The translations under genes were made by a program, and so were the position numbers. A stretch of DNA of 64,000 nt from Aquirufa lenticrescens (GTDB lineage Bacteria; Bacteroidota; Bacteroidia; Cytophagales; Spirosomataceae): the NCBI RefSeq assembly GCF_019916085.1, contig NZ_CP049834.1:403501-467500 (forward strand), written 5' to 3'. Positions 10,709-55,082 of the stretch are shown here, piece by piece. A model generated the notes under the pieces. It made no database searches. It had not been told where the DNA came from and saw only the letters and a program-made list of their open reading frames with translations. Position 1 is the first letter of the stretch; each line of letters starts with the position of its first letter.

Positions 10709-13700
10709 ATGAAAAACAATTTTTACCAAAGTCTACGAAGCTTTCTTTTGCTAGCGATAGTGATGCTAGGAAGCTTTTCGTCATTTGCCCAAGACCGTAA
10801 GGTTACAGGTAAAGTCTCTGGGACAGATTCTCAGGGAATTCCAGGTGTAAGTATCTTAGTAAAAGGAACAAACACAGGAGCTACTACAGATGTTAATGGT
10901 ACATTCTCTGTAACTGTTAAATCTGGATCAGCTGTTTTAAATATCTCAGCTGTAGGCTATAAGTCTCAATCAATTACAGTGGGTTCACAAACTTCTATCA
11001 ATGTAACGTTAGCAGAAGATAATTCTCAGTTAGATGAGGTAATCGTAACAGGTTACTCTGTAACGAACAAGAAGGAATCTACAGCTGCTGCTTCTATCGT
11101 TAAAGCGAAAGATTTACAAATCTCTCCTTCAGGTAACGTAGAGCAACAATTACAAGGTCGTGTAGCCGGTGTTACTTTGATCACTAACGGACAACCAGGT
11201 ACGAACAGTATCATCCGTGTACGTGGTTTTGGTGCATTTGGTGGTAACGAACCATTATACGTAGTTGATGGAGTTCCAGTAGGTACAACAGATTTTATCT
11301 CTCCAGATGATATCGAGTCAGTTACGGTCCTTAAGGATGCAGCAGCGGCTTCTATCTATGGTGCTCGTGCAGCGAATGGTGTAATCGTTTACACTACGAA
11401 GCGTGGTACGCGTAATAAAGGTATTACTGTTACTTATGATGGATTGTATGGTGGTACTGATCCTAACGTAGGTGGTGTAGCTAAAATGTTAACTCCACAG
11501 GAGCAAGCAGACTGGACTCACGTAGCTTACCGTAACAATGCGGCGGCTAACGGAACGGCAGTAGGTTATACTCACCCTCAATATGGTACTTCAGCGCAAG
11601 CTACTTTACCTACTTACTTGCACTTCAATGGCGCAAATGGTGTAAACTCTGGTGATATGGCAGCAGCTCAAGCAGCTTTTGCTTCTAATCCATTGAACAC
11701 ATTCGTAATCAAAACAAACAAAGCTGGTACTAACTGGTATGATGAAATCACTCGTTTTGGTACTACAATGCGTCACTCATTAGGTATCCAAGGTGGAACT
11801 TCAACTGGTCGTTTCTACTTAGGTTTATCTGGACAAGAGCAACAAGGTATCTTGATTCAAAATGATTTCAAACGTTATTCAGCACGTTTCAACTCAGAAT
11901 TTGATTTAGGTAAAAAAGTACGTGTAGGAGAAAACATCCAAATGACATATCGTTCAGTACGTGGTCAAGCGGGTGGTAACAACGGTTTAGGTGTGGCTGC
12001 TGATGAATCAGTAATCTTATCTGCTTACCGTATGCCTACTGCGATTCCAGTTTACGATGAGTTCGGAAGCTTTGCATCTACTAAGGCTGCAGGTTTTAAC
12101 AACCCACGTAACCCAGTTCGTCAAATCTTACGTAACAACTCAAACGATAACAACTACAATGCGTCTGCATTCGGTAACGTTTACGTTGAGTATGAGCCAA
12201 TCAAGGATTTAATTATCAAATCTTCAATCGGTGGTCAATATGCAGGTTATGCATACAAAGATTATAACTACAAATATTTAGGTGATTCAGAGCCAGAGGC
12301 TTCTAACTCATTCTATGAAGGTTCTGGTTATAACTTCGCTTATACTTTCACAAATACAGCTGCTTACAAATACCAATGGAGAAAACATGGTGTTAAAGCG
12401 TTAGTAGGTATGGAAGCATTGAACACAGGTGCTGGTCGTCAGATCTCTGGTTCAGGTATCAATCCATTCTCAATGGATACGGATTTCGTAACTTTATCAT
12501 CTGTACAATCTCCTGTAGTTAACTCAGGTTTATATTCTGGTGTTAATTTCTACTCTTTATTCTCTAAGTTAGACTATAACTTCAATGAGAAGTATTACTT
12601 AACGGGAGTTGTTCGTCGTGACGGATCATCTCGTTTCGGTTCTGAGAATCGTTATGGTATCTTCCCTGCAGTATCTGCTGCTTGGAGAGTAACTTCTGAG
12701 GAATTCATGAAAGATCTTCCTGCTATTTCTGATTTAAAAATCCGTGGTGGTTGGGGTTTAATGGGTAACTCGAATAACGTAGACCCTGCTAACCAGTACT
12801 CTTTATACGCTGCTAACCGTGGTACTTCATTCTATGCAATTGAAGGTCAATCATCAGGAGCGAACGAAGGATACTTCCGTTCTCGTATTGGTAACCCAGC
12901 TGCGAAGTGGGAGACTTCAGAAACAATGAACATTGGTTTTGATGCAACTCTTTACAATGGTAAGTGGGAAGTAGTTTTAGACGTTTGGAGAAAAGATACT
13001 CGTGATCTATTATTCAACGTACCTCTTCCAGCGGTAGTAGGTAACTCAGCTTCTGCACCTTCAGTAAACGTTGCTAAGATGCGTAACCAAGGTATTGATT
13101 TCCAAATCATCAACCGTGGTAACTTAACTTCAGATTTGAAATATGAATTAACATTCAATAACTCATTCTTGAAGAACGAAATCGTAGCATTTGCTCCAGG
13201 TATCACAAACTTAACAGGTGGTGCATTCCGTGGAATCACGCCAGTACGTATGGAAGTAGGTCGTTCTCTATCTTCTTTCTACGGTTACCAAGTGATCGGT
13301 TACTTCAACTCAGCTGCTGAAGTAGCTTCTTCTCCAGCGCAAGATGGTAAAGGCTTAGGTCGTTTCCGTTATGCTGATATCAATGGTGATGGTAAAATTA
13401 CTACTGATGACCGTACGTTCTTAGGTTCTCCAGTTCCTACTTACACAGGTGGTATCAACATTGGATTGACTTACAAAGATTTTGAATTCGCAACGTATTT
13501 ATATGCATCAGCTGGAAACAAAATTTGGAACCAATCTAAGTGGTTTACAGACTTCTTCGGAACGTTTGAAGGATCAGGTAAAGGTGAGCGTGCGAAGCAA
13601 TCATGGACTCCAGAATTAGGAAACAGCGCTGCTGCTCCGATTTGGGAATCAAATTCAAACATGTCGACTTCAGGTGCTGCTAACTCATGGTATGTAGAAG

Positions 13701-13942: not shown

Positions 13943-13973
13943 TTAGCGAAAGCCAAATTTAAAGAATATAAAA

Positions 13974-15722
13974 ATGAAAAATAATCAGATTTTAAAGCGA
14001 ATAGCTTTAGTGAGTGTGTCAGCTCTTACGTTGACCTTCGCTTGTAAAGATCAGTTCTTAGAAGTTCCGCCAACAGCCTCTTTGGCTCAAGCGCAATTAT
14101 CTTCTAAAGAAGGTGTAGAAGGTACCTTAATTGGTGCTTACGCTCAGTTAGCTGCAAAAGGATATACTCGTCTTGCTGCAGGTAATAACTGGGTATGGGG
14201 TTCTATCCGTGGTGGTGAGAACAACAAAGGTACGGATGCGGGTGACTTTACGTCAATCAACCCTATGCAACGTTATGAAGTTCAACCAACAGATGGTGAC
14301 TTGAACTCTACATGGCAAGCAAAATACGAGGGTATTGCTCGTTGTAATGCGACGATTAACTTAGCAAATGGTTCGAAAGAATTATCTGCTGCAGATAAGA
14401 CTCGTATCATCGGGGAAGCACGTTTCTTACGTGGTCACTTCTACTTCGAATTGAAGAAGTTATTCAACTCTGTTCCTTATGTTGATGAGACACAAGATTA
14501 CGGAAAAGGAATCGAAAAAGTAGCTAACACAGAAGCATTCTGGGATAAGATCGAAGCTGATTTTGCTTTTGCTTATGCTAACTTGCCAGCTACGTCTTCT
14601 TCTGCAGGTCGCGCTAACAAATGGGCTGCTCAAGCTTATTTAGGAAAAGCGTTATTGTACCAAGGAAAGTTTGCTGATGCGAAAGCTAAGTTTACTGACG
14701 TTATCGCTAACGGTGTAACTACAAATGGTAAGAAATACGGTTTAGTTCCTAAGTTTGCTGAAATCTTCAATGCGGAGAATGACAACAACGAAGAAGCTAT
14801 TTTCGCTATCCAATCTTCGATGAATACAGGTAACGTGAATAACGCGAACGGTTTCGATGACTTGAACTACCCATACAACACGGGTTCTGATGGTCCAGGT
14901 AACTGCTGCGGATTCTTCCAACCTTCGTTCTCTTTAGCGAATGCGTATCGTACAGTTAACGGTTTACCTATCTTAACTGAAACAGCTGGTGCTCCAGATT
15001 ACAACTCTGATGCAAATGCAGTGAAGAATGACTTTAAAATCGCTTCTTCTGCAGCATTTACTGAAGATGCAGGTCCATTAGATCCTCGTATTGACCACAC
15101 TATCGGTCGTCGTGGTATCCAATACTTAGACTGGATCGAGCACCCTGGTAAGAACTGGATTCGTGATCAAACGTACGCAGGTCCTTACTCACCTAAGAAA
15201 TACGTTTACTACAAGCGTCAAGAGAATACATTAACTGATGGTTCTTCTTGGACACGTGGTTATGCTACAATGAACTTCAACATCATTCGTTTCGCAGACG
15301 TTTTATTAATGGCTGCTGAGGCTGAAATCGAAGCGGGTACATTAGCGAAAGCATTAGAGTATGTGAACTTAGTTCGTGCTCGTGCAGCTAACCCTGCTGG
15401 TTTCGTAATGAAAGGTGGAGTACCTGAGGCTAACTATGTAATCGCACCTTACACAGCATTTGCTGACAAGGCTACTGCTCAAAAAGCAGTTCGTATGGAG
15501 CGTATGTTAGAATTAGCTACAGAAGGTCACCGTTTCTTCGACTTAGTTCGTTGGGGTACAGACGTTACTACGTTAAATGCTTATTTATCGTACGAGTCTA
15601 AATTCTTAGTAACTAAGTTTGGTGGAGCTTCTTACCAAGCAACGGATAAGTATTTACCTATCCCACAAGCTCAAATCGATATCCAAGGTTCTTCAGTATT
15701 GAAGCAAAACGCAGGATATTAA
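13974..15722 (+). CDS. SusD/RagB family nutrient-binding outer membrane lipoprotein (locus A)
   Basis: The 582-residue product has a lipoprotein signal (lipobox LTFAC; Cys near residue 24) and the SusD fold: N-terminal 'FLEVPPTASL', TPR-like helices ('ARFLRGHFYFELKKLFNSVPYV'), and the C-terminal RagB/SusD signature 'RMLELATEGHRFFDLVRWG' with 'YLPIPQAQID'. It forms the surface lid over the SusC barrel and binds the incoming substrate. A strong terminator follows the stop, so susC-susD form a two-gene unit and the next gene probably has its own promoter. Confidence 0.95.
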   Translation: MKNNQILKRIALVSVSALTLTFACKDQFLEVPPTASLAQAQLSSKEGVEGTLIGAYAQLAAKGYTRLAAGNNWVWGSIRGGENNKGTDAGDFTSINPMQRYEVQPTDGDLNSTWQAKYEGIARCNATINLANGSKELSAADKTRIIGEARFLRGHFYFELKKLFNSVPYVDETQDYGKGIEKVANTEAFWDKIEADFAFAYANLPATSSSAGRANKWAAQAYLGKALLYQGKFADAKAKFTDVIANGVTTNGKKYGLVPKFAEIFNAENDNNEEAIFAIQSSMNTGNVNNANGFDDLNYPYNTGSDGPGNCCGFFQPSFSLANAYRTVNGLPILTETAGAPDYNSDANAVKNDFKIASSAAFTEDAGPLDPRIDHTIGRRGIQYLDWIEHPGKNWIRDQTYAGPYSPKKYVYYKRQENTLTDGSSWTRGYATMNFNIIRFADVLLMAAEAEIEAGTLAKALEYVNLVRARAANPAGFVMKGGVPEANYVIAPYTAFADKATAQKAVRMERMLELATEGHRFFDLVRWGTDVTTLNAYLSYESKFLVTKFGGASYQATDKYLPIPQAQIDIQGSSVLKQNAGY

Positions 15723-15740
15723 TTTGTTCTAATTTTTCTT

Positions 15741-15772
15741 AAAAAAGGTGGGATATTAATCCCACCTTTTTT
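15741..15772 (+). terminator. Intrinsic terminator after susD of locus A
   Basis: GGTGGGAT (15747-15754) and ATCCCACC (15759-15766) form a perfect stem with an ATTA loop, preceded by six A and followed by six T. Confidence 0.9.
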
Positions 15773-15779
15773 ATTTTCG
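15772..15779 (+). promoter_or_regulatory. Candidate -7 element for the giant FG-GAP gene of locus A
   Basis: TATTTTCG differs from TAnnTTTG at one base and ends 20 nt before the ATG at 15800, directly after the susD terminator. No good -33 TTG is seen because the terminator occupies that position. Confidence 0.35.
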
Positions 15780-15799
15780 CTTAAGTTTAAAAATGCCCT

Positions 15800-18700: not shown

Positions 18701-19285
18701 TATGGTAAGATTACACAGGATGATTTTCTGACAGAGAAGGAAAAGGTAAAAGCGTCTAAATTATCTTTAACCGAAAATGCCTCGATGTATATCGAGAATT
18801 TAGGTGGAGGGCATTTTAAAGCGCAAGCTTTGCCAGATATGGCGCAGCTTTCTTCATTGAATGGGATGCAGATATTGGACGTGAATGCGGATGGTTATCT
18901 AGATATCCTATTCGTGGGGAATAACTTTGCGAATGAAGTAGCGATGGGTCGTTATGATGCATCCAATGGTGGTGTATTATTAGGCAATGGCAAAGGCTTT
19001 ACTTATGCACAGAATTCTGGGATGATGGTGCCTGCAGATGCAAAATCCCTAGTGGGTATTCAAGTTGGCTCAGAATTAGCCTTTATCGCTATGCAGAACA
19101 GAGGACCGATGAAAGTGTTTAAGCCTACGGGTTCATTTGTAAAAGCTGCAGTAAAGCCTGGTGCGTCGTTTAAATATACTTTGAACGGTCACAAACAAAA
19201 GATGGATTGGAACTATGGCTCTTCTTATTTGAGCCAAAGCGCTAGCGCACAAAGCTTTATTCCTAAGGGAGCAAAACTCAATTAG
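15800..19285 (+). CDS. Giant FG-GAP/VCBS-repeat lipoprotein with ASPIC/UnbV domain (CRTAC1-like), locus A
   Basis: The 1161-residue product begins with a lipoprotein signal (lipobox VFSC, Cys near residue 19). About 14 Ca-loop motifs of the form D-x-D/N-x-D/N-G-x-x-D (for example DFNNDGLLD, DYDRDGDLD, DVNGDGLED) are spread over two FG-GAP/VCBS beta-propeller-like halves. Between them, at about residues 520-595, is an ASPIC/UnbV module ('GIGTRIEGV', 'VAHIGLGAKQKIKELRVIWPND'). CRTAC1-like proteins are thought to be extracellular Ca-stabilised propellers; their role in bacteria is not known. The gene follows a SusCD pair and ends four bases inside the convergent cytochrome c/FG-GAP gene, so I infer a surface protein acting with the SusCD system. 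Confidence 0.88.
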   Translation: MKPIYVYLVLASTLLVFSCKNATTFELLSGDDTGIHFSNKIVENDSLSILKYEYLYNGSGVGMGDFNNDGLLDVIFSGSQANATLYLNKGEMKFEELSKSAGLDTKDRWCSGVSLVDINGDGLLDVYVSATMKNAERDRQNMLFVNQGIKDGKPSFKEMATEYGINDNGHSEHAAFFDYDRDGDLDLYVLTDVIDQVPSLYRPKVTDGSYPNTDRLYRNDWSKEKNHPVFTNVSKEAGITIEGYGLGINICDINQDNWPDIYVTNDYVSDDILYINNHDGTFTDQAKAYFKHTSLSAMGNDVADINNDGRPDIVALDMLPKDNERKKQLAPPNSYQSYQNSDLHGYTYQYMRNSLQLNAGKKADGSPAPFQEISLLAGVAETEWSWCPSLADFDNDGFRDLMITNGFPRDVTDRDFMLYRANSARLASDAILLAQMPVIKVNNYAFKNKGGMHFDDVSAAWGIQRPSFSNGASYGDLDNDGDLDYVVNNINDEAFVYKNNTVETNADKGHYLRVKFEGKGQNTQGIGTRIEGVYADGTYFYYENSPYRGYLSSVEAVAHIGLGAKQKIKELRVIWPNDSMQVITKPGLDQILKVKLADAKQPYVSLYQQQAPLMQDVTNQMQLTDVHKEYDFIDFNYQSLIPFKMSQLGPGASVGDVNGDGLEDFFVGGAKFYSGIFYLQQANGKFVQKFLEGTAEKKEKLGEDLGSLLIDMDKDGDLDLYIARGGTESQIGASNFQDVVYANDGKGNFSLVTSALPSFTESNAAVRAVDFDKDGDLDLFVSGRNVPFSYPQGTPSRLLRNDSKAGTIKYTDATAKWAPDLLKPALACDAIWTDLNNDGWSDLVVAGEFMPIHVYQNEKGRLVKVEKTGLEEMTGLWGSVAAADFDQDGDMDLVAGNMGKNTLLRANAKQPVDVLHGDVDGNGVYDVFPFVYFQSASGVPVSAPLFGKDDVHKQLNSTRQRWVYYKDYGKITQDDFLTEKEKVKASKLSLTENASMYIENLGGGHFKAQALPDMAQLSSLNGMQILDVNADGYLDILFVGNNFANEVAMGRYDASNGGVLLGNGKGFTYAQNSGMMVPADAKSLVGIQVGSELAFIAMQNRGPMKVFKPTGSFVKAAVKPGASFKYTLNGHKQKMDWNYGSSYLSQSASAQSFIPKGAKLN

Positions 19286-20751
19286 TGGATTGAATTACGT
19301 AAGAGTCTAACTTGAAGGCCAGGTGTTAGTTTAACGCCTGGCTTTGGTTTTCCAAATTGAAAATTGCCTAGCAGTAGGTCTATATCTCCATCTTTGTCAA
19401 AGTCCCCAGCATCCATTGACATATAGCGAGCATCATCTGGAAGGTTTAAGTTACTGACTTGAAATTGTAATTTGCCTTGGTTTTGGAAGTATAAAAAAGA
19501 TTCGTTTTTGCCTTTGTCGTTTTCAGAAAAGAAGGCAATCATCGCTAAATCGACATCCCCATCCCCATCAAAATCGCGTGCAAGTGTTTTAGTAGCACCA
19601 TAGGCTGGGTAGAAATACCCTTCTTTGAAATTGTTCTTCTGGTCATTCAAAAAGAGGTGAACGCCGTGGTAGGCCTTCTTTATGATGGAGTTATCCGCAT
19701 TATCGCCATTGGAAATAATGATATCATCGAATCCATCCTTGTTTAGGTCTGCGACTTCCATATAACTACTTCCCCAAACAGCGTCAAATTGAAGCAAAGG
19801 CTTCTCCACAAATAGGCCGTTTCCTTTATTAATAAAGAGCGATACGCCTTCATTCGCTTCTGCCATCAACACTAAAATATCAGGCTTCCCATCCTTCGAA
19901 TAATCCTTTATAATGACGTTTCTGGATCCAGGTTGTGACTTTAATACGTGTCTCTCTTTGCTTTTTCCATCAACCCAAACTAATTGACCTGCTTGGAATC
20001 CATATTCGCAGATCAAATAATCCATTGCTCCATCGCCATTAAAATCAGCTACTTGCATATCAACGGGACGCTTCAGGCCATCCACTAATTTGACTAGTTT
20101 ATTTTTAGGCAGAACTTCATACAAGGCTCCGATTTTTTCATCGTTCGGCAGTATTTTTCCTACACTTAATAGATAATGGTTATTTTGTAGAAAGGCCGTA
20201 TGAACAGTAGGACTTGGTGTTCTAAGGGTAGCATTAACGTGAAGTTTACTATCTAAAATAAGGGTTTCGTTTGTATTCAGCCCTAACCAAGCTTCCGCTT
20301 TATTGGGGTGTATTTTAACGGAGGTGATTCTGCCTGACTGATAGGCAGGAGAAATGAAATCTTCTTGTTTAAAATACAGCGGAGTCGTTAAAATAGGACT
20401 TTTTGTTTTTTGAGGAAGCGCATTTTCGGGCGCATTGCTTACATAATAATCGACGATTGCCTGCCAATCTTCCACACTCATGGCCGGCGTTTCTGGATAG
20501 ATTTTCATCGCTACGGCTGTTTGGAATTGTTCCTCTGGAATTTTAGCGGCTAGTTCAAATTTATTGCGCATACCTAAGCGATAGGACATATCTATCAGAA
20601 CCTGGTCGTTCCAGGTTTTTTTGTCCAAAAGGCTCGGGTCTGGAAACTTGTGGCAAGAACTACAATTTTCTTTAGCTAACTCTTCTCCTGTTTTTTTAGA
20701 ACTACAAGCAAAAGTCAATAAAGCAATAAAAATAATAGCTACAATTCTCAT
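19282..20751 (-). CDS. Cytochrome c / FG-GAP-repeat lipoprotein (locus A)
   Basis: The 489-residue product has a lipobox (LTFAC, Cys16) followed at once by a monoheme cytochrome c module: CSSCH at C30, C33, H34, and a probable axial Met in 'PAMSVEDWQAIVDYYV' near residue 90-105. The rest is a propeller with about five Ca-loop motifs (DFNGDGAMD, DLNKDGFDD, DFDGDGDVD). It therefore joins an electron carrier to an FG-GAP propeller. A close architectural match is encoded at 53607-55082 in locus B. The ATG overlaps the stop of the PBP1A gene by four bases (ATGA), so it is the third gene of the porW-PBP operon, while its 3' end overlaps that of the giant FG-GAP gene. The electron acceptor is not known. 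Confidence 0.85.
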   Translation of the reverse strand: MRIVAIIFIALLTFACSSKKTGEELAKENCSSCHKFPDPSLLDKKTWNDQVLIDMSYRLGMRNKFELAAKIPEEQFQTAVAMKIYPETPAMSVEDWQAIVDYYVSNAPENALPQKTKSPILTTPLYFKQEDFISPAYQSGRITSVKIHPNKAEAWLGLNTNETLILDSKLHVNATLRTPSPTVHTAFLQNNHYLLSVGKILPNDEKIGALYEVLPKNKLVKLVDGLKRPVDMQVADFNGDGAMDYLICEYGFQAGQLVWVDGKSKERHVLKSQPGSRNVIIKDYSKDGKPDILVLMAEANEGVSLFINKGNGLFVEKPLLQFDAVWGSSYMEVADLNKDGFDDIIISNGDNADNSIIKKAYHGVHLFLNDQKNNFKEGYFYPAYGATKTLARDFDGDGDVDLAMIAFFSENDKGKNESFLYFQNQGKLQFQVSNLNLPDDARYMSMDAGDFDKDGDIDLLLGNFQFGKPKPGVKLTPGLQVRLLRNSIH

Positions 20752-45421: not shown

Positions 45422-46891
45422 ATGAAAAAATATATCTATAAAGTACTTTCAGTAGGTGTTTTCGCTTCGTTAGCCCTATCGTCTTGTACAGATTTAACTG
45501 AGCCAGTTTACGATTCGATCCCAGCGGATCAATTCTTGAAAACTGATGCTCAAATTGCTGCGGCATTAGGACCTGCTTATGGTGGTCTTCGTGGTATCAC
45601 TTGGGATTGGTTCAATCCAAGTGAGGCATCTTCGGATGAGTTGATCGTTCCTACACGTGGTGGTGACTGGTATGATGGTGGTGACTGGTTGGCGTATTCT
45701 CGTCACACTTGGACTCCACAACACGGTCCTATCAACGGAATGTGGGGATTCATTTTTGGTAACATCTCTCAGGTGAACCAATTGATCCCAGTGGTTGCTT
45801 CTAACCAAAAAGCAGTAGATGAGTTACGTGCAGTACGTGCTATCTACTACTTCATGGCAGTGGATGCATTCGGTAATGTGCCTATCGTAACAGATAACAA
45901 ATCATCTGCAGCGACTAAGCCTCGTGCTGAAGTGTACAACTTTATCGTTTCTGAATTGACTTCTGCTATCCCTAACTTACCTACAGGTAAAGCTTACTCT
46001 CGTATGACGCAAGATGCTGCTAAAGCATTGTTAGCGAAAGTATACTTGAACGCAGGTGTGTATAAAGGCGCAACTGAGTGGCAAAAAGCATATGATACAG
46101 CTGATCAAGTAATCAAATCTTCGAACAACTGGTCATTATCTTCTTCTACTTTGTCTAACTTTATCGTTCAAAACCAAGGTTCAAACGAGAACATCTTTGC
46201 TATCCCTTACGATTCATTCAAAGCGGGTGGTATGAACTTCCAAATGAGAACGTTACACTATGCTAACCAACAAACGTATGGTTTAGGTAACTCTCCTTGG
46301 AATGGTTTCTGTACTTTAGCTGATTTCTACAACTCATTTGAGTCGAATGACTTACGTGGTGCTATGTGGATCAAAGGACAGCAATATGCTGCTTCTGGAG
46401 CTAAGTTAAAAGATGCAAAAGGTGCTGATTTAGCATTCGTTGCAGATTGGGAAAAAGATCAAATGACTGATGCTGATGCAGTTTACCAAGTAGCTGGTAT
46501 CCGTTCTCAGAAATATGAGATCCAAAAGAACAACCCGAACGGTGATCAATCAAATGACTACGTATTCTTACGTTTAGCTGACGTTATCTTAATGCGTGCT
46601 GAAGCTGCTTTCCGTTTAGGAAATACTGCTCAAGCGTTAACTGATATCAACGCTATCCGTACGCGTTCAGGTGTTGCTCCTTTAACTGCGGTTACTGCTG
46701 ACGATATCTTAGCTGAGCGTGGTCGTGAATTAGCTTGGGAAGGATGGAGACGTAATGACTTAATTCGTTTCGGTAAGTTCTCTGTTGAGCGTAAGTTCAT
46801 GAAGGTTACTGACAAGACTCGTGAATTGTTCCCAATTCCACAACCTCGTCGTGATGCTAACCCATTATTGACTCAAAACCCAGGATATTAA
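45422..46891 (+). CDS. SusD/RagB family nutrient-binding outer membrane lipoprotein (locus B)
   Basis: The 489-residue product has a lipobox (LALSSC, Cys near 22), a typical SusD N-terminus ('YDSIPADQFLKTDAQIAAALG'), the helical 'ELRAVRAIYYFMAVDAFGNVPIV' and the C-terminal signature 'ILAERGRELAWEGWRRNDLIRFG' with 'LFPIPQPRRDANPLLTQNPGY'. It is the substrate lid of the SusC upstream. A terminator follows. Confidence 0.95.
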   Translation: MKKYIYKVLSVGVFASLALSSCTDLTEPVYDSIPADQFLKTDAQIAAALGPAYGGLRGITWDWFNPSEASSDELIVPTRGGDWYDGGDWLAYSRHTWTPQHGPINGMWGFIFGNISQVNQLIPVVASNQKAVDELRAVRAIYYFMAVDAFGNVPIVTDNKSSAATKPRAEVYNFIVSELTSAIPNLPTGKAYSRMTQDAAKALLAKVYLNAGVYKGATEWQKAYDTADQVIKSSNNWSLSSSTLSNFIVQNQGSNENIFAIPYDSFKAGGMNFQMRTLHYANQQTYGLGNSPWNGFCTLADFYNSFESNDLRGAMWIKGQQYAASGAKLKDAKGADLAFVADWEKDQMTDADAVYQVAGIRSQKYEIQKNNPNGDQSNDYVFLRLADVILMRAEAAFRLGNTAQALTDINAIRTRSGVAPLTAVTADDILAERGRELAWEGWRRNDLIRFGKFSVERKFMKVTDKTRELFPIPQPRRDANPLLTQNPGY

Positions 46892-46909
46892 TAGCTAGGT
46901 TTTTAATAG

Positions 46910-46939: not shown

Positions 46940-46974
46940 GTTTTATAGGGGTTTTATATGCCCCTCGTATTTTG

Positions 46975-46982: not shown

Positions 46983-47007
46983 TAGCGCAAAAATTCGATC
47001 ATTAAGA

Positions 47008-50000
47008 ATGAAAAATTATTCCTTATTCTTCCTTATTTCCCTTTGTCTTTTCTCTTGTTCTCAGAAAGAAGACACTCTTTTTGAAGAGTTACCTGCTGAA
47101 CAAACTGGTATCGATTTTGTGAACCGGAGTTTAGAGAAAAAGGAGTTTAATATCTTCAATTACCGCAACTTTTATAATGGAGGTGGCGTGGCGATAGGCG
47201 ACGTGAACAACGATGGTTTGTCGGATCTTTTTGTGACCTCTAATTTCGAAGACAATAAGTTGTATTTGAATAAAGGGGCGATGAAGTTCGAGGATATTAC
47301 GGTGAAGTCAGGGATTGTGGGGAAGAAGTTTTGGTCTACAGGTGTCACCTTTGCTGATGTGAATGGGGATGGCTTGATGGACATTTATGTGTGTAATTCA
47401 GGTTCGCGTGATCAGCGTGGGAATCAATTGTACATTAATCAGGGGATCAAAGGTGGCGTTCCTACCTATAAGGATCAAGCGAAAGAGGCAGGTCTGGAAG
47501 ATGGTGGATTTTCGACGCACGCGGCCTTCTTCGATTACGATCGGGATGGCGATTTAGATATGTATTTGTTGAATAACAGTTTTACCCCGATTGATAAATT
47601 AGGGTATACGAATTTGCGGGAGGAGCGAGATAAATTAGGGGGTGATAAGTTATTTAGAAATGATAGTAAGGATGGGAAGGAACTTCATTTTACCGATGTG
47701 TCGGAGACGGCGGGTATTTATGGAAGTTTGATTGGTTTTGGTTTAGGAATTACGATAGGTGATGTCAACAATGACAACTGGCCTGATATTTATATTTCGA
47801 ATGACTTTTACGAGCGCGATTATTTGTATATCAACCAAAAGAACGGCACGTTTAAAGAAGATTTAGAGAATGAGATGCCGCATATTTCGTTGAGCTCGAT
47901 GGGCGCGGATATGGCGGATTTAAACGACGATGGCTATATGGACATCTTCGTGACGGATATGTTGCCGGGGGATGATCGCCGTTTAAAGACGACGTCGGTT
48001 TTTGAGGGCTATAACTTAGTGGAGTTGAAGAAGAAACGTGGGTTTTGGCATCAATATATGCGCAATAACTTGCAGCTGAATAATGGCGATGGTTCTTTCT
48101 CAGAAGTGGGTCAATTAGCCGGTGTGCATGCGACGGATTGGAGCTGGGGCGCCTTGATCTTTGACATGGACAATGACGGGAAGAAGGATATTTTCGTGGC
48201 GAATGGTATTGCGAAAGACTTAACGGATCAAGATTTCGTCGATTTCCTAGGGGATCGCAACACGATGCAGCAAATGCTAGACGGGAAGAAATTCGACTAC
48301 AAAGAGTTTACAGACAAAATTTCCTCTGTACCTATCCCGAATTACGCCTACAAAAATGAAGGAGATTTGAAGTTCTCGAACCAGGTGAAAGCGTGGGGAT
48401 TAGAAGGTCCAGGATTCTCGAACGGTTCTGCCTATGGTGACTTAGACAATGATGGGGATTTGGACTTAGTCGTGAACAATGTCAATGCACCTTTGTCAGT
48501 GTACAAAAACAAGACAAACGAGAAGTTAAAGAATCATTATTTGACCGTACACCTAAAAGGAACGGATCGCAACTTGAATGGTATCGGTGCACGGGTAACG
48601 GTGTACCAGAAAGGTGGATTCAAAGTATTGCAACAAATGCCTAATCGTGGTTTCCAATCTTCGAGTGACCACCAAATGGTGTTCGGCTTAGGAGCGAATG
48701 GGGCGATTGATTCAGTACAGGTTTTATGGCCGAATGATAAGATCGAAACGATTAAAACGGTGAAAGCGGATCAGATCATTACTCTTAAGCAGGAGAATGC
48801 AAAAGAGATCTTCCATTTCTTCGAGGCAAAACAAACACCGATTTTTGCGGATGTGACGTCTGGTTTATTGGATTATCTACATGTGGAAAGTATGTTCAAT
48901 GACTATGACCGCGATGTTTTATTAAAGCAAAAGTATTCTACGCAGGGTCCAGCTTTAGCGGTGGGCGATGTAAACGGAGATGGTTTGGAAGATATTTACC
49001 TAGGTGGTGCAGCAGGTCAAATCAAGCAATTATTTGTCCAAAAACCTGGAGGTCAGTTCGTCAATTCTCCACAAGCAGATTTTAGCCTAGATCAAACAAC
49101 GGAAAATACGGATGCGATTTTCTTCGATGCGGATAAAGACGGAGACCAGGATTTATTTGTGGTCACTGGAAGTAATGAGTTCGCGGAGAATGCCCCGGAA
49201 TTACATGATTTGTTGTATTTGAATGACGGTAAAGGAAATTTGAAGCGTGATGTTCGATTCCCGATGATTTATGAAAATGGGTCGAGCGTTTCGGCGGCGG
49301 ATTACGATAAAGATGGTGACATCGATTTATTCGTAGGAACACGTATGGTCAATGCGAAATATGGCCAAAGCACACAAAGCAATCTGTTCATTAACGATGG
49401 AACGGGGGGATTCAAGAATCAGTCGAAACGCTATATGCCACAAGTGACGGAGCTAGGCATGGTGACGGATTCAGAATGGTCTGATGTGAATGGCGATGGC
49501 TATGTGGATCTTTTAGTAACACAAGATTGGGGTCCAGTGGTTGTGTTTAAGAATGAAAGAGGTAGAAAATTAACCAAGCAGGAGCCAGTGGCGGGATCGG
49601 AAGGACTCTGGTCGTGTATCAAGCCGGCGGATATTGATGGCGATGGTGATATGGATTTTGTGCTGGGGAACTTTGGCCTAAATTCTAAGATTAAAGCCTC
49701 AGCTGAGTCACCGGCCTACTTACATGTAGGGGATTTTGATAAGAATGGGGTTGTAGAACAAATCATCTCTTGTGTAACGGAGGATGGAAATACGTATCCA
49801 ATGGTCTTGAAAGGGGAGATGCAACGTGCGCTTCCGATGATCAAGAAGAAATTTATTAAGTATAAGGATTATGCGAACAAAACGGTGGACGAATTGTTCA
49901 GTGATGAGCAACGTGAGGGGGGTACTGTGCGCCAAATCACGACAACGCAATCATCCTTTATGATCAACGATGGCAAAGGTAATTTCAGCTTGCAAGCACT

Positions 50001-50307
50001 TCCTTACCAGGCTCAATTCTCTCCTATTAGAGGCATTCAAGCCGCAGATTTCAATAAGGATGGCAAACTAGATATTTTATTAGCCGGTAATTTCTTTGAT
50101 TCGCTTCCAGAGTGGGGGCGGTTCGATGCGAATTATGGACTTCTATTAGAAGGACAAGGTAAAGGTAAATTCGCGGTCAAATTATCGAAGCAAACTGGAT
50201 TTAAAACCCTCGGTCAAGTACGTAATATGGCGCTCGTAAAAGGAGGAAAGTCGACGTATGTAGTATTGGCCAAAAATGATGACAAAGCCCAAGTATTTAA
50301 ATTTTAA
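47008..50307 (+). CDS. Giant FG-GAP/VCBS-repeat lipoprotein with ASPIC/UnbV domain, locus B copy 1
   Basis: The start at ATG 47008 gives the lipoprotein signal (MKNYSLFFLISLCLFSC, Cys17) followed by SQKED, an acidic surface-export-like signal. The open frame begins at 46924 but that part overlaps the terminator and promoter. The 1099-residue product has about 13 D-x-D/N-x-D/N-G-x-x-D loops (DVNNDGLSD, DYDRDGDLD, DMDNDGKKD and others) in two halves around an ASPIC/UnbV module (about 520-600: 'GIGARVTVYQKGG', 'MVFGLGANGAIDSVQVLWPND'). It resembles the locus A protein in length, order and motifs. Its role is not known; position after SusCD suggests a surface partner in substrate handling. Confidence 0.88.
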   Translation: MKNYSLFFLISLCLFSCSQKEDTLFEELPAEQTGIDFVNRSLEKKEFNIFNYRNFYNGGGVAIGDVNNDGLSDLFVTSNFEDNKLYLNKGAMKFEDITVKSGIVGKKFWSTGVTFADVNGDGLMDIYVCNSGSRDQRGNQLYINQGIKGGVPTYKDQAKEAGLEDGGFSTHAAFFDYDRDGDLDMYLLNNSFTPIDKLGYTNLREERDKLGGDKLFRNDSKDGKELHFTDVSETAGIYGSLIGFGLGITIGDVNNDNWPDIYISNDFYERDYLYINQKNGTFKEDLENEMPHISLSSMGADMADLNDDGYMDIFVTDMLPGDDRRLKTTSVFEGYNLVELKKKRGFWHQYMRNNLQLNNGDGSFSEVGQLAGVHATDWSWGALIFDMDNDGKKDIFVANGIAKDLTDQDFVDFLGDRNTMQQMLDGKKFDYKEFTDKISSVPIPNYAYKNEGDLKFSNQVKAWGLEGPGFSNGSAYGDLDNDGDLDLVVNNVNAPLSVYKNKTNEKLKNHYLTVHLKGTDRNLNGIGARVTVYQKGGFKVLQQMPNRGFQSSSDHQMVFGLGANGAIDSVQVLWPNDKIETIKTVKADQIITLKQENAKEIFHFFEAKQTPIFADVTSGLLDYLHVESMFNDYDRDVLLKQKYSTQGPALAVGDVNGDGLEDIYLGGAAGQIKQLFVQKPGGQFVNSPQADFSLDQTTENTDAIFFDADKDGDQDLFVVTGSNEFAENAPELHDLLYLNDGKGNLKRDVRFPMIYENGSSVSAADYDKDGDIDLFVGTRMVNAKYGQSTQSNLFINDGTGGFKNQSKRYMPQVTELGMVTDSEWSDVNGDGYVDLLVTQDWGPVVVFKNERGRKLTKQEPVAGSEGLWSCIKPADIDGDGDMDFVLGNFGLNSKIKASAESPAYLHVGDFDKNGVVEQIISCVTEDGNTYPMVLKGEMQRALPMIKKKFIKYKDYANKTVDELFSDEQREGGTVRQITTTQSSFMINDGKGNFSLQALPYQAQFSPIRGIQAADFNKDGKLDILLAGNFFDSLPEWGRFDANYGLLLEGQGKGKFAVKLSKQTGFKTLGQVRNMALVKGGKSTYVVLAKNDDKAQVFKF

Positions 50308-50311
50308 AACA

Positions 50312-53300
50312 ATGCGTACCCATTTTTTCTCTATTCTGTTTTTCTCTTTTGTTCTGTTCGGCTGCAATTCAGGCGATGACGTTGTGCTTTTCGAAAAATT
50401 AGATGCCGAAAAGACCCACATTGACTTTGCGAATAATATCACGGAGACCAAGGATTTTAACATCTTGGACTACTTGTATTTCTACAATGGTGGTGGTGTT
50501 TCTGCTGGGGATATTAATAATGATGGATTAGTGGATTTGTTTTTTGTGTCCAACCAAGGCAAAAACAAATTGTACCTGAACAAGGGCGATATGCAATTTG
50601 AAGACATCTCGGTGAAGGCGGGAATCGAAGGATTCTCTGACTGGAAAACAGGGGTGACGATGGCCGACGTAAACGCGGATGGCTTCTTGGATATCTATAT
50701 TTGCGCGGTGGGGAATTACAAAGGTTTGGAAGGTTCTAACGAATTGTACATCAACAACGGTGACAATACATTCACGGAAAAATCAAATGAATTTGGCTTA
50801 GACTTTACGGGATTCTCTACGCAAGCGGCCTTTTTTGATTATGATAAAGATGGCGATTTAGATTGCTATTTATTGAACCATGCTGTACACAACACCCGTT
50901 CCTATGATCGCGTGAATACGCGTTCGTTGAAAGATAACGAGGCGGGCGATTATTTATACCGAAATGATGGAGGCAAATTTGTGGATGTGTCGAAAGAGTC
51001 TGGTATTTACCAAGCTGCGATGGGTTATGGTCTGGGAATTTCGGTGGCGGACATTAACAATGATGGCTGGTTAGACATCTATGTGAGTAATGACTTTCAC
51101 GAGGATGATTATTACTACATCAATCAAAAGGACGGTACGTATAAAGAAGGCATTCGCGATCACTTCAAGCACTTGAGTCGTTTCTCGATGGGTTCTGATG
51201 TGGCGGACATTAATAACGACGGATTCCAAGATGTGATGACCTTGGATATGTATCCAGATGACGAGAAAGTGGAGAAATCGTCTGTAGGAGAGGATCCATT
51301 GGACATTTATATGTACAAATTGCAGTTCGGTTATTTCAATCAATACAGCCGTAACTGCCTTCAATTAAATATGGGTGGCCAAAAATTCTCCGATATCGCT
51401 GCCTCTTCCGGAGTGGCTGCGACAGACTGGAGCTGGTCGACGTTGATGAACGATTACGATGGGGATGGAATCAAAGATATCTTCATCTCGAACGGTATTT
51501 TACGCCGTCCGAATGACTTGGATTATTTGAAATTCGTGATAGGTGATTCGCTGCATTATGGCTTGCCTACGTCTGAGAAATTGGATCAAGAAGCGATCGA
51601 TTTGATGCCGGATGGTCGTGTACACAATTACATTTTCAAAGGTGCGAAGGATTTACGCTTCGTAGATAAATCCATTAAATGGGGTTTTGAGGACAAAGGG
51701 GTTTCGAACGGATCGACGTATGCGGATTTAGACAACGACGGAGATTTGGATTTAGTAACAAACAACTTGAATGAAAAGGCGAGTGTCTACCAAAATAACA
51801 GCCGCCAATTATTGAAGCACAATTTCGTGAAGGTTAAATTCAAAGGAGATGGCGGAAATACGTTTGGTGTAGGGGCGAAGGTCATCTTGAAAACGAAGGA
51901 CGGGCAGCAATTGCAGCAGATGATGCCCACACGTGGGTTTATGAGTTCAGTAGAGCCTACCTTATTATTTGGGATTGGAGATTTACAGCAGGTGGATGAG
52001 ATGCTTGTGATTTGGGAAAATGAAAAAATGCAGATCGTTAAGAATCCGAAGATTAATTCGACCTTAACGATGGAGCAAAAGAATGCCAACGTAAACGTGA
52101 AGGATTATGTGTTCTCTGCGCCAGTGAAACCTCTTTTTGCTGAAGTGACGGATGGAGTGAATGTTCCGTACCAGCATCAAGAAAATGTCTATTTCGATTT
52201 CAACCGCGAATTGTTAATTCCATTTAAGGTTTCTATCGAGGGGCCAAAAATTGCGGTGGGTGATGTGAATGGGGATGGTCTGGAAGACGTGTATTTAAGC
52301 GGTGCGAAATACCAGGCAGGTCAATTGTTACTACAGAAAGGTGCCGGCTTTGTGGTATCGAATCAGCCCGTATTTAAAGCGGATTCATTGTATGAAGATG
52401 TGGATGCGCTATTCTTTGATGCTGATGGAGATACCGATTTGGACCTTTATGTGGTAACGGGAGGGAATGAATTCTATGATAAAATGCCGGAGCAATTCGA
52501 TCGTTTGTATACGAATGATGGTAAAGGGAATTTCACTCGTGCCTTGAATGCCTTACCTCCGATGTACGACAATAAATCGGTTGTGCGTCCTTGCGATATC
52601 GATCGCGATGGAGACATGGATTTATTCGTAGGTGGTCGCGTGGTAGGTTATTCTTATGGTGCTTCGCCGCGTTCGTATTTATTGGTGAATGATGGCAAGG
52701 GACACTTTGCGGACAAGACGGCGGCTCTAGCTCCGGAATTGCGGGAAGCAGGGATGTTGACGGAGGCGATTTGGGCAGATATTGATAAAGATGGAGATCA
52801 AGATTTAACCGTGGTGGGCGATTGGATGCCGATTAAGACCTTTGAAAACAACAAGGGTAAATTCAAATTAATAGAGAACGGTCTGGAAGAGAAAACAGGA
52901 TTCTGGTCGGGTATTACAGCAGCGGATTTTGACAAAGATGGCGATCTAGATTTCATTGTAGGAAATCTAGGTACGAATACGAAATTACGCAAGGACCTAG
53001 ATGGCCAATTGCGGATGCTGATTAAGGACATTGATAAGAATGATACTAAGGAGCACATCATTGCATATAACCGCGGAAATGATTGGTTCCCAATTAACAG
53101 TAAGGATGAAATGGGGAAACAGATTCCAAGTATCATTAATAAGAAATATACGGCGTACCATATGTTTGCGGGTAAGACGGTGGAAGAGATTTTTGGTGAT
53201 AAGGAATTAGAAGGGGCGGATGAAAAGTGTGTCAATATGTTTGAATCAGTCTACTTAGAAAACCAAGGCAACAAGACCTTCAAAATGGTGGCGCTTCCGG

Positions 53301-53605
53301 CGTTAGCTCAAGTGTCTAAGATCATGGTATTACGCACGGAAGATGTGGATAAAGATGGAAATCTCGACGTCATCGTAGGAGGTAACTTTAACGGTGCTTC
53401 GATGTACCAAGCGCGTTATGACGCATTCTTTGGCCTGATTCTAAAAGGAAATGGCAAAGGCGGATTCAAAACGCTTATCCCGACTGATACCGGATTGATG
53501 CTTGAAGGCGACATTCGCGACATAAAGCAGGTGAAGACTACCACAGGAATTTTGTACCTCGTAGCTCGTAATAACGATAAACTGCAGGTATTTAAGAAAT
53601 TATAG
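50312..53605 (+). CDS. Giant FG-GAP/VCBS-repeat lipoprotein with ASPIC/UnbV domain, locus B copy 2
   Basis: The ATG at 50312 gives a lipobox (FVLFGC, Cys near 18) followed by NSGDD. The 1097-residue product has about 13 Ca-loop motifs (DINNDGLVD, DYDKDGDLD, DYDGDGIKD and others) and an ASPIC/UnbV-like module in the middle ('GVGAKVILKTKDG', 'LLFGIGDLQQVDEMLVIWEN'). It lies four bases after copy 1 and is the same length, so the two probably arose by tandem duplication, though they now differ at most positions. It is followed after one base by the cytochrome c/FG-GAP gene. Confidence 0.88.
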   Translation: MRTHFFSILFFSFVLFGCNSGDDVVLFEKLDAEKTHIDFANNITETKDFNILDYLYFYNGGGVSAGDINNDGLVDLFFVSNQGKNKLYLNKGDMQFEDISVKAGIEGFSDWKTGVTMADVNADGFLDIYICAVGNYKGLEGSNELYINNGDNTFTEKSNEFGLDFTGFSTQAAFFDYDKDGDLDCYLLNHAVHNTRSYDRVNTRSLKDNEAGDYLYRNDGGKFVDVSKESGIYQAAMGYGLGISVADINNDGWLDIYVSNDFHEDDYYYINQKDGTYKEGIRDHFKHLSRFSMGSDVADINNDGFQDVMTLDMYPDDEKVEKSSVGEDPLDIYMYKLQFGYFNQYSRNCLQLNMGGQKFSDIAASSGVAATDWSWSTLMNDYDGDGIKDIFISNGILRRPNDLDYLKFVIGDSLHYGLPTSEKLDQEAIDLMPDGRVHNYIFKGAKDLRFVDKSIKWGFEDKGVSNGSTYADLDNDGDLDLVTNNLNEKASVYQNNSRQLLKHNFVKVKFKGDGGNTFGVGAKVILKTKDGQQLQQMMPTRGFMSSVEPTLLFGIGDLQQVDEMLVIWENEKMQIVKNPKINSTLTMEQKNANVNVKDYVFSAPVKPLFAEVTDGVNVPYQHQENVYFDFNRELLIPFKVSIEGPKIAVGDVNGDGLEDVYLSGAKYQAGQLLLQKGAGFVVSNQPVFKADSLYEDVDALFFDADGDTDLDLYVVTGGNEFYDKMPEQFDRLYTNDGKGNFTRALNALPPMYDNKSVVRPCDIDRDGDMDLFVGGRVVGYSYGASPRSYLLVNDGKGHFADKTAALAPELREAGMLTEAIWADIDKDGDQDLTVVGDWMPIKTFENNKGKFKLIENGLEEKTGFWSGITAADFDKDGDLDFIVGNLGTNTKLRKDLDGQLRMLIKDIDKNDTKEHIIAYNRGNDWFPINSKDEMGKQIPSIINKKYTAYHMFAGKTVEEIFGDKELEGADEKCVNMFESVYLENQGNKTFKMVALPALAQVSKIMVLRTEDVDKDGNLDVIVGGNFNGASMYQARYDAFFGLILKGNGKGGFKTLIPTDTGLMLEGDIRDIKQVKTTTGILYLVARNNDKLQVFKKL

Positions 53606-53606
53606 G

Positions 53607-55082
53607 ATGCGGACTCTGCTGGCAATTGCTCTCTTTTCGATTTTTTCTTATGAGTTTCCAAGTTGCTCGAACAAGGCAGCCGAAGGAAAAGAGCTGGCCA
53701 AAACGTATTGCGCTTCTTGCCATCTACTTCCAGATCCCGCGAGTTTGCCTAAAAATGTGTGGCAATACAGCACACTACCCTATATGGGTATTATGATGGG
53801 CGTGGACAAAGAGATCGGGATGTTAGAGAAACCGCTTTCGGATTACACGATTTTAGGTCCAGGTTCCCAAATGATTCCAGATGAGGATTGGGAAAAGATC
53901 AAAGCCTATTATTTAGAGGAGGCGCCCAAGACCTTGGAAATGCCGGCTTATATTCCTTTGCCTACGCAGACCCTATTCGAAGCCGAACCTATTGTGGCCA
54001 CCTTGCCTGGAACGACTCTCCCTAATATGACGGCGATTCGCATCGATGCACGTCGTCATCAAATCACGGCGGGAGATCAATCGAATCGCGTGATTTGGAA
54101 ATGGGATGCTGCGGGTAAATTACTGGAGACTAAGAAAGATCAAGATGCCTTAACGGATATTACTTTGTTGGGCTCAGAAACCTTGTATACGTTCATTGGA
54201 ACAACGACACAGGCGAATCCGGATGTGAATGGATTTGTGAGTCAAGCTTCAACAGGTAAGAAATTATTGCAAGGATTGAATCGCCCGATTGGATTAGTTT
54301 CGGCTAATTTAGATAAGGAGGCTGGCGATGAATTAATCACGTCTGAATTCGGATTCAAAGTGGGTGGAATGAGTATTTGGAAGCTGAATAAAGGGTCCTT
54401 CAAAAAACAAGTATTGAATCCTCAAACCGGAGCCACAAAAACGATTGTACGCGATTTTACGGGAGACGGTCGACTGGATATTTTAGCGCAATTCGCCCAA
54501 GGTGATGAGCGCATTTTGCTGTATGAGAATCTGGGTGGTTTGAAATTTAAAGAAAAACAGTTGCTTCGCTTTCCGTCTATTTATGGATCCTCCTCTTTCG
54601 ATGTGGTTGATATCGATGGAGACAAGGACTTGGATATCATTTATACGGCAGGGGATAATGCCGATTTTACGACAGTTTTGAAGCCATACCACGGGATGTA
54701 TATTTTCGAGAATACCGGGGGATTTAATTTTAAGCAGAAGGCTTTCTTCTCTCAAAATGGCGCGACTAAAGTGATGCCTGGCGATTTCGATGGCGATGGT
54801 GATGCGGATTTGATATCAATTGCTTTGTTCCCTGATGTGGCGGCTAGACCGGGCGAAGGGGCGATGTATTTTGAAAATAAAAAAGGGACGTTTGTTCCGA
54901 TGACTTTACCTATTCAACATTTGGGTCGTTGGTCTGTGATGGACGTGGCAGATCTAGATGGGGATGGTGATTTAGATGTAGCCTTTGGCTCACATGCTGT
55001 GGCTAAATTCCCACAAGGGGGATTTGACCCTCAATGGAAACAGGCAAAAGGTCTGCTGATTTTACGAAATAAAACAAAATGA
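53607..55082 (+). CDS. Cytochrome c / FG-GAP-repeat lipoprotein (locus B)
   Basis: The 491-residue product has a signal region ending in 'EFPSC' (Cys20, a weak lipobox), a monoheme cytochrome c module with CASCH at C35, C38, H39 followed by 'LLPDPASLP', a probable axial Met in 'QMIPDEDWEKIKAYYLEEAP', and a propeller with about four Ca-loop motifs (DFTGDGRLD, DFDGDGDAD, DLDGDGDLD). It shares this layout and the 'C..CH...PDP' and 'M....W..I..YY' patterns with the locus A protein at 19282-20751. Its stop overlaps the next ATG (ATGA). I infer electron transfer linked to the SusCD/FG-GAP system. Confidence 0.85.
   Translation: MRTLLAIALFSIFSYEFPSCSNKAAEGKELAKTYCASCHLLPDPASLPKNVWQYSTLPYMGIMMGVDKEIGMLEKPLSDYTILGPGSQMIPDEDWEKIKAYYLEEAPKTLEMPAYIPLPTQTLFEAEPIVATLPGTTLPNMTAIRIDARRHQITAGDQSNRVIWKWDAAGKLLETKKDQDALTDITLLGSETLYTFIGTTTQANPDVNGFVSQASTGKKLLQGLNRPIGLVSANLDKEAGDELITSEFGFKVGGMSIWKLNKGSFKKQVLNPQTGATKTIVRDFTGDGRLDILAQFAQGDERILLYENLGGLKFKEKQLLRFPSIYGSSSFDVVDIDGDKDLDIIYTAGDNADFTTVLKPYHGMYIFENTGGFNFKQKAFFSQNGATKVMPGDFDGDGDADLISIALFPDVAARPGEGAMYFENKKGTFVPMTLPIQHLGRWSVMDVADLDGDGDLDVAFGSHAVAKFPQGGFDPQWKQAKGLLILRNKTK

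Follow-up and report, generated by a model that had tools for sequence, protein, structure and literature searches.

Two loci, A and B, were analysed in a window of 64,000 nucleotides (the whole stretch under study of DNA from the freshwater bacterium Aquirufa lenticrescens), and their features are listed in Table 1. In each locus a SusC gene lies next to a SusD gene, accompanied by one or two genes for giant FG-GAP/ASPIC lipoproteins (ASPIC; proteins of about 1,100 residues) and by a gene for a monoheme cytochrome c/FG-GAP protein of 489-491 residues, labelled CYT here, with one CxxCH near the N-terminus of each of the two window proteins. The gene content and the heme motifs given in an earlier note were thus found in place, as was the orientation of CYT, which is opposite to that of SusCD and ASPIC in locus A and the same as that of its neighbours in locus B. 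The 13-14 Ca-loops per giant given there were reproduced by a loose count (14, 14 and 13, respectively), whereas the strict expression D.[DN].[DN]G..[DE] gave 13, 13 and 12, respectively; the strict expression found 4 and 2 such loops in the two window CYT proteins.

Table 1. Coordinates in the window of the genes and heme-attachment motifs of loci A and B.
Feature	Coordinates	Strand	Evidence
Locus A SusC-like TonB-dependent transporter, 1077 aa	10709..13942	+	Pfam Plug and CarbopepD_reg_2; SusC profile built here, 1577 bits
Locus A SusD lipoprotein, 582 aa, mature N-terminus CKDQFLE	13974..15722	+	Pfam SusD_RagB 7.5e-51
Locus A giant FG-GAP/ASPIC lipoprotein, 1161 aa	15800..19285	+	Pfam FG-GAP_3 1.6e-77, UnbV_ASPIC 1.5e-16
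Locus A CYT lipoprotein, 489 aa, N-terminal monoheme cytochrome c-like domain and predicted seven-bladed FG-GAP propeller	19282..20751	-	
CSSCH heme-attachment motif, locus A CYT residues 30-34	20650..20664	-	
Locus B SusC, 998 aa	42371..45367	+	TIGR04056 748 bits, cut-off 368
Locus B SusD, 489 aa, mature N-terminus CTDLTEP	45422..46891	+	Pfam SusD_RagB 2.4e-33
Locus B first giant FG-GAP/ASPIC lipoprotein	47008..50307	+	Likely start inferred from signal peptide and lipobox; longest ORF from 46924
Locus B second giant FG-GAP/ASPIC lipoprotein	50312..53605	+	Likely start inferred from signal peptide and lipobox; longest ORF from 50276
Locus B CYT, 491 aa	53607..55082	+	
CASCH heme-attachment motif, locus B CYT residues 35-39	53709..53723	+	
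Second TonB-dependent receptor of the locus B run, 837 aa	55079..57592	+	Pfam CarbopepD_reg_2 and Plug
DUF4249 lipoprotein, 353 aa, paired with the second TonB-dependent receptor	57592..58653	+	Pfam 2.1e-30

With the likely starts in Table 1, the two ASPIC genes of locus B do not overlap. Locus B had been taken to end with CYT and was found to continue: CYT is preceded by a gap of 1 base, and its stop overlaps the start of the second TonB-dependent receptor by 4 bases, with the DUF4249 lipoprotein following. The pair of TonB-dependent receptor and DUF4249 lipoprotein also lies downstream of CYT in related loci, and the DUF4249 cluster was found in 9/100 CYT loci vs 0/39 controls. When locus B was scanned for promoters and terminators, 25 and 13 sites were found, respectively, vs 39.8 and 14.2 in shuffles, with no excess in either case. 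In locus A, a TPR protein (23066-25099), a penicillin-binding protein (20748-23069) and, last, CYT form a run on the minus strand, joined by 4-base overlaps and conserved in five other Aquirufa loci (L063-L067); because CYT ends this opposite-strand run, it is probably not co-transcribed with SusCD.

The UnbV_ASPIC domain was detected in all three giants (60.5, 71.8 and 73.1 bits; cut-off 23.4), together with FG-GAP repeats. CRTAC1 was the best match of the ASPIC giant by sequence and fold, and its structure 9etn was the best solved-structure match of the locus A giant; the structure model was mediocre (pLDDT 68.6) and was used only for this link. An FG-GAP propeller and an UnbV_ASPIC domain are common to the giants and the CRTAC1/ASPIC-UnbV family, but the giants are about twice as long as CRTAC1, are bacterial lipoproteins and are linked to SusCD. 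In classical Sus loci, the position directly after SusD is that of surface glycan-binding proteins. Both window loci resemble Sus-like loci in the tandem SusC/SusD genes and the large lipoprotein directly after SusD, and differ from them in three respects: the large lipoprotein is one of the FG-GAP/ASPIC giants, there is a cytochrome/propeller gene in addition, and the Pfam scan (not a CAZyme-specific library) revealed among the scanned genes of either locus no carbohydrate-active enzyme, the mark of a polysaccharide utilisation locus. For the giant FG-GAP/ASPIC lipoproteins that accompany some SusCD systems, no established role is known to us, and no description of the combination with a Sus-type system was seen among the matches listed, in the titles and abstract openings of the open-licence literature.

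A search of the whole genome gave two CYT and three ASPIC genes, all inside these two loci. Identities between loci A and B were 30% for CYT, 39-40% for ASPIC and 25-26% for SusD, the two locus B giants being 44% identical to each other, and the two CYT genes fell in different clades of the CYT tree. A recent duplication of one cassette was ruled out by these values and clades, because of which the loci are, as judged from their sequences, old paralogous cassettes and not one rearranged cassette. The earlier suggestion that the association had survived rearrangement should be reworded accordingly. The arrangement does vary across the 39 sampled loci with SusCD and ASPIC, in which the nearest ASPIC gene is on the same strand as CYT (25 loci), convergent (10) or divergent (4). 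Seven of the sampled loci, from five genera (L062, L068, L103, L110, L112, L115 and L125), have the cassette B order C-D-A-A-CYT, and in L099 and L124 a cassette-A-like SusD and ASPIC are combined with a CYT of another lineage.

For the comparison across genomes, 100 CYT loci were used, of which 68 are from the window's family and 7 of these from its genus; two of the loci overlap, and L137 holds two CYT genes. SusCD and ASPIC were present in 39/100 CYT loci (43 genera) vs 1/39 control regions and the full set was missing, in the region read, from the other 61, fractions which are not population estimates because the loci were hand-picked from search matches to cover genera and in which the SusD counts include a second SusD cluster assigned from one scanned member. 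Within the 27 genomes with controls, the counts were 17/47 vs 1/39, respectively (p=7e-5). In 11 single-contig genomes, 7/19 CYT genes lay within 12 kb of an ASPIC gene where 0.5 was expected, with no ASPIC gene within this distance for the remaining 12, and only 9/77 ASPIC genes lay within 12 kb of a CYT gene. CYT was found in 112/121 sampled genomes of one family. The second genome search gave 38 genomes with matches, of which 8 with only weak matches (E above 1e-6) were left out and the strong ones were sampled in part; absence is uncertain in this search, in which scoring covered, for most genomes, the best 9 candidates. The enrichment across genomes, on which the earlier note had staked its proposal, was therefore borne out, as a frequent partnership of CYT with SusCD-ASPIC beyond chance and not as an obligate cassette. 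The association label changed 16 times on the quickly searched CYT tree vs 34 times in shuffles, and the distances covary (Mantel r 0.78 for CYT-ASPIC and 0.70 for CYT-SusD, with 0/2000 permutations as high), although covariation is also favoured by shared species history; on account of these changes and covarying distances, the association is regarded as recurrent.

Such a pattern might also arise if CYT and SusCD-ASPIC gathered in nutrient-acquisition regions with no joint action, a shared niche which is unlikely but deserves serious weight. It would accord with the 61 loci that have no full set, with the locus A CYT in a run with a penicillin-binding protein, and with the diversity of the other CYT neighbours, among which are a purB-like gene, a GMC dehydrogenase and unrelated genes. 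Against it, when Aquirufa was set aside, 16/26 SusCD loci linked to CYT in the window's family carried ASPIC vs at most 69 ASPIC genes per 289 SusC-profile matches (p=1e-4), the background being an upper bound from eight single-contig genomes, with the best 36 SusC candidates used in the larger ones; the enrichment of ASPIC near CYT thus exceeds what proximity to SusCD alone gives. The conserved order of cassette B, the tight spacing around the locus B CYT of the window and the combinations in L099 and L124 also argue against it. The purB-like gene (cluster 12) was read as adenylosuccinate lyase from the start of its sequence and was set aside as a functional clue because it is a housekeeping gene.

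The predicted fold of CYT consists of five helices and a seven-bladed propeller. Exactly one CxxCH was present in 130/130 CYT proteins, in which respect CYT differs from an extracellular electron transfer conduit of multiheme cytochromes and an outer-membrane barrel; with this single motif in an exported helical domain, CYT would be classed as a monoheme c-type cytochrome. The profile matches of the N-terminal domain were weak (Cytochrome_CBB3 in 12/15 and DHC in 11/15 members, E up to 0.1) and, by the scores of one member (member 1 of A4), below the curated Pfam cytochrome c cut-offs (21.9 bits vs 27, 17.2 vs 21.3 and 17 vs 22.2); neither window CYT matched a Pfam cytochrome family at E 0.001, and the single heme and the fused propeller also separate CYT from the DHC and Cytochrome_CBB3 domains. 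Met55, a candidate second axial heme ligand, was conserved with the heme motif in 110/110 aligned proteins, which suggests a working heme, and one-electron transfer by CYT is plausible from this putative heme site. Two cytochrome c assembly (PF01578) matches are carried by the genome.

In the propeller, R228 and H362 are invariant, N351 and K359 are conserved at 99%, and D350 and E301 at 96%; as read from the strand list of the model, all six would map to loops (B-C or D-A) between the 28 strands of the propeller, on the face opposite the Ca loops. The predicted placement of R228, N351, K359 and H362 on one propeller face is compatible with CYT being an enzyme with its active site in the propeller, as in quinohemoproteins or cytochrome cd1, and with the heme domain as a built-in electron exit, a reading to which we give a low probability. 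In quinohemoproteins a monoheme domain is fused to a beta-propeller, and CYT is comparable to them and to cytochrome cd1 in its N-terminal monoheme domain and propeller, but it has a seven-bladed Ca-loop FG-GAP propeller in which no second cofactor or cofactor site was identified, and neither group was among its sequence matches. The Foldseek matches included aldos-2-ulose dehydratase at rank 11 and, at rank 50, a poor match to cytochrome cd1 (TM 0.38, rmsd 16); most of the top ones were partner-binding propellers (LGI1, KICSTOR and integrin), and the propeller matches are generic. Equally improbable in our estimate is the bolder claim that CYT represents a class of periplasmic hemoprotein oxidoreductases not described before, in which a Ca-stabilised FG-GAP propeller would hold the active site (R228, N351, K359 and H362) and the fused heme c would be the electron exit. 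Across Bacteroidota, the uptake of particular nutrients by Sus-type systems would then be linked directly to respiration.

The location of the proteins was estimated from the N-terminal signals, acidic residues after the lipid cysteine being the lipoprotein export signal (LES) for the surface (PMC5080379). The mean number of acidic residues at +2..+6 was 0.65 for CYT, 0.40 for BamD and 1.50 for SusD, with p=2e-9 for CYT vs SusD and p=0.24 for CYT vs BamD, the latter a small control of 15 distinct N-termini; an acid at +2..+4 was present in 21/85 distinct CYT N-termini, counted without the heme-motif cysteine of L079, L090 and L134 as a lipid cysteine, vs 47/57 for SusD. As judged by this signal, which is not established for Cytophagales, CYT lacks the surface-export signature and resembles periplasm-facing BamD, not SusD. 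Lipoprotein-like signals were found in both window CYT proteins. A lipobox was missing in 35/130 CYT proteins by the strict rule and 23 by the loose rule (plus L079, L090 and L134), some of the remaining ones being wrongly extended ORFs; 17/130 homologues had no lipidation cysteine at the hydrophobic core, and in L134, L136 and L142 a CYT without the lipid-anchor cysteine is beside SusCD and ASPIC. CYT thus probably works inside the envelope and not on the cell surface.

The acidic signal of ASPIC was lower than that of SusD by two measures (p=0.016 and 1e-8) and higher than that of BamD by one (p=0.009) but not by another (13/48 vs 2/15, p=0.49), and adjacent acids after the lipid cysteine were as frequent in ASPIC (10/48) as in SusD (13/57; p=1.0). 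Because the signal varies with the measure used, a clear surface exposure of ASPIC, considered at first, was given up.

The earlier note had proposed an outer-membrane or surface machine, that is, a complex with CYT outside among the ASPIC lipoproteins and electrons moved during capture. Locus B as one run, the lipoprotein-like signals and the FG-GAP fold common to CYT and ASPIC would suit it, but it is not supported by the BamD-like CYT N-termini or the homologues without a lipidation cysteine, three of which accompany SusCD and ASPIC; moreover, the outer membrane is not bridged by a single heme alone, and no multiheme cytochrome was among the Pfam matches in the two window loci. In the comparison of compartments, by which the note would have had its proposal judged, the surface reading was weakened by the CYT signal and not refuted, the N-termini of ASPIC and CYT differing under the stricter lipobox rule (p=0.007) but not under the looser one (p=0.15), and it is regarded as highly improbable. 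Least probable of all is a heme with a purely structural or sensory role, CYT then being a Ca-dependent scaffold or binding protein of the periplasm that would dock the importer or signal the redox state; the partner-binding Foldseek matches and varied gene neighbours fit it, but the invariant heme motif and Met55 point to a working heme.

The reading preferred here, held tentatively and at somewhat less than even chances, is that CYT is a periplasm-facing redox accessory repeatedly recruited to Sus-like uptake systems. The analysis itself showed the gene content, the enrichment, the single heme site, the conserved residues, a CYT N-terminus unlike that of SusD and, by prediction, a fold of two domains; that CYT would lie in the periplasm, carry its heme, transfer electrons, meet a substrate and touch SusCD or ASPIC is what we infer. 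A complex organic substrate would be captured and imported by SusCD together with its one or two FG-GAP/ASPIC giants, and CYT would be held in the periplasm, in Aquirufa on the outer membrane at its inner leaflet and in some relatives apparently soluble or anchored in the inner membrane. The conserved propeller face may bind the imported substrate or an enzyme acting on it, and the heme c would hand electrons, one at a time, to the respiratory chain.

Import in Bacteroidota relies mainly on SusCD systems, and the preferential position of CYT beside them suggests that some imported nutrients may be oxidised in the periplasm, with electrons passing straight to a cytochrome; the association also offers a way to identify the binding partners of the ASPIC giants. 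A GMC dehydrogenase with a cytochrome c acceptor is a known kind of system, and in three CYT loci of one clade a GMC oxidoreductase cluster gene and a gluconate 2-dehydrogenase subunit 3 gene lie directly upstream of CYT. This arrangement was not seen in the window loci, where no dehydrogenase partner was found by Pfam in locus A and an acyl-CoA dehydrogenase-like gene at 58718 was the only oxidoreductase near locus B. Among 83 scanned neighbour proteins of the SusCD-ASPIC-CYT loci, which are part of 112 listed from a list that leaves out ten loci, DPPIV_N (5/83) and Peptidase_M1 (3/83) peptidases were found, an observation that is only suggestive. Although too rare to build on, a PAP2-type lipoprotein (cluster 17) recurred near CYT in 11/100 loci vs 0/39 controls (p=0.023).

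The association of CYT (a protein with an N-terminal monoheme cytochrome c-like domain and an FG-GAP propeller, 489-491 residues in the window) with a SusCD pair and ASPIC (the giant FG-GAP/ASPIC lipoprotein, about 1,100 residues in the window) was estimated by using 100 regions of at most 20 kb surrounding CYT genes from 43 genera in 10 family groups. The controls were 39 regions on the same contigs, 200 kb from CYT genes. A SusCD pair was present in 52/100 CYT regions versus 5/39 controls, ASPIC in 41/100 versus 1/39, and both together in 39/100 versus 1/39 (p=3e-6), an enrichment across genomes that upholds the gene association claimed in the earlier note. Within the 27 control-bearing genomes alone, the joint counts were 17/47 and 1/39, respectively (p=7e-5). 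At least one complete locus occurred in 21 of the 43 genera. Among 11 single-contig genomes, 7 of 19 CYT genes had an ASPIC gene no more than 12 kb away, where 0.5 would be expected, and the remaining 12 had none that close; only 9 of 77 ASPIC genes were, by our count, equally near a CYT gene. ASPIC enrichment near CYT goes beyond that of SusCD: for Spirosomataceae excluding Aquirufa, ASPIC accompanied 16/26 CYT-linked SusCD loci, the comparison rate, taken from eight genomes, being at most 69 ASPIC genes for 289 matches to the SusC profile.

The genome carrying the window (2.5 Mb, one contig) was found by genome searches to hold three ASPIC and two CYT genes, every one inside the window; the nearest named match to the window CYT gene was from Aquirufa antheringensis (91%). 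The locus B CYT gene follows a 1-base gap and overlaps the next gene by 4 bases. The locus A copy ends a minus-strand run, so its tie to SusCD is a convergent neighbourhood only. The same run was observed in five sampled regions (L063-L067). The TonB receptor/DUF4249 pair, possibly a second, uncharacterised importer type, also adjoins CYT in L062, L068, L099, L110, L112, L115, L125, L129 and L149. At the window start, the CSACH protein is a possible third cytochrome, and its neighbour hints at 3-keto-sugar metabolism.

Coordinates and contents of the window features
Feature	Position	Content
Hydrolase/PVC-type genes	304-3938	3-keto-disaccharide hydrolase domain protein, then protein weakly matching PVC-type heme-binding family (C-terminal CSACH motif)
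Locus A	10709-20751	SusC, SusD, 1161-residue FG-GAP/ASPIC lipoprotein; CYT convergent
Minus-strand run	19282-25099	CYT, bifunctional penicillin-binding protein, TPR protein, tightly packed
Myo-inositol oxygenase	38256-39083	Pfam MIOX (1.2e-94); between loci A and B
Locus B	42371-58653	SusC, SusD, two ASPIC, CYT (53607-55082), all one strand; then the importer-type pair
Importer-type pair	55079-58653	Second TonB-dependent receptor, then DUF4249 lipoprotein

The AlphaFold2 model of CYT (pLDDT 88.6) contained a helical domain (residues about 22-106) followed by 28 strands, which by our count form seven four-stranded blades. Foldseek matched the propellers of LGI1, KICSTOR, integrin alpha and aldos-2-ulose dehydratase, with cytochrome cd1 at rank 50, and the N-terminal domain weakly matched Cytochrome_CBB3 and DHC. 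A single CxxCH was present in 130/130 proteins. In 110 aligned proteins, Met55 (proposed as the axial heme ligand), Trp47, Arg228 and His362 were invariant, and Asn351 and Lys359 were 99% conserved; as we read the strand order, conserved residues outside the Ca loops would fall on the B-C and D-A loops of one propeller face.

The Bacteroidota lipoprotein export signal is described, in PMC5080379, as an acidic cluster directly after the lipid cysteine. Positions +2 to +6 had a mean of 1.50 acidic residues for SusD (54 distinct N-termini), 1.09 for ASPIC (47) and 0.65 for CYT (77) of the same loci, and 0.40 for the periplasm-facing control lipoprotein BamD (15, from 19 of 20 fetched); CYT differed from SusD (p=2e-9) and ASPIC (p=0.007) and not from BamD (p=0.24). 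Under a looser lipobox rule, an acid at +2 to +4 was found in 47/57 SusD, 13/48 ASPIC, 21/85 CYT and 2/15 BamD, and the CYT-ASPIC difference was gone (p=0.15). With the SusD-type signal in SusD and not in CYT of the same loci, CYT looks periplasm-facing, which weakens a placement on the cell surface; ASPIC is ambiguous by this signal. No cysteine was found at the hydrophobic core in 17/130 CYT proteins, including L134, L136 and L142, each beside SusCD and ASPIC; a lipid anchor is impossible in these proteins provided that their starts were predicted correctly.

The likeliest of the functions proposed for CYT is that of a redox accessory that would serve certain Sus-like systems from within the periplasm. 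Two cytochrome c assembly matches were found in the genome. Three loci (L109, L111, L113), in which CYT directly follows a GMC oxidoreductase cluster gene adjoined by a gluconate 2-dehydrogenase subunit 3 gene, suggest that CYT can accept electrons from a dehydrogenase; they form one CYT clade and were counted as one case. Against an accessory role, the full SusCD and ASPIC set was absent in 61/100 CYT loci, locus A gave no sign of CYT co-transcription with SusCD, and the window has no obvious electron-donor gene next to CYT. A serious rival is that CYT and SusCD-ASPIC are co-located in nutrient-acquisition regions without joint action. CYT distances covary with those of ASPIC and SusD (39 CYT genes having both partners), which shared species history also favours. 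The boldest reading still standing, a propeller that is itself catalytic, is improbable.

CYT matches were obtained in 112/121 genomes of the family and in 38/296 of a phylum sample (30 strong), with Emticicia, Runella, Flavihumibacter, Ulvibacterium, Cyclobacterium and Saprospiraceae MAGs among the named carriers. On the CYT tree (110 proteins, quick search, deep forks weak), the SusCD+ASPIC label required 16 changes, compared with a mean of 34 when shuffled; the link has therefore been repeatedly gained or lost. The CYT genes of loci A and B fell in different clades. L099 and L124 carry SusD and ASPIC like those of locus A, yet a CYT of another lineage, which looks like CYT gene exchange. 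A PAP2-superfamily protein (cluster 17; L136:10529-11854 and related) was observed between ASPIC and CYT or nearby in 11/100 CYT loci and 0/39 controls.
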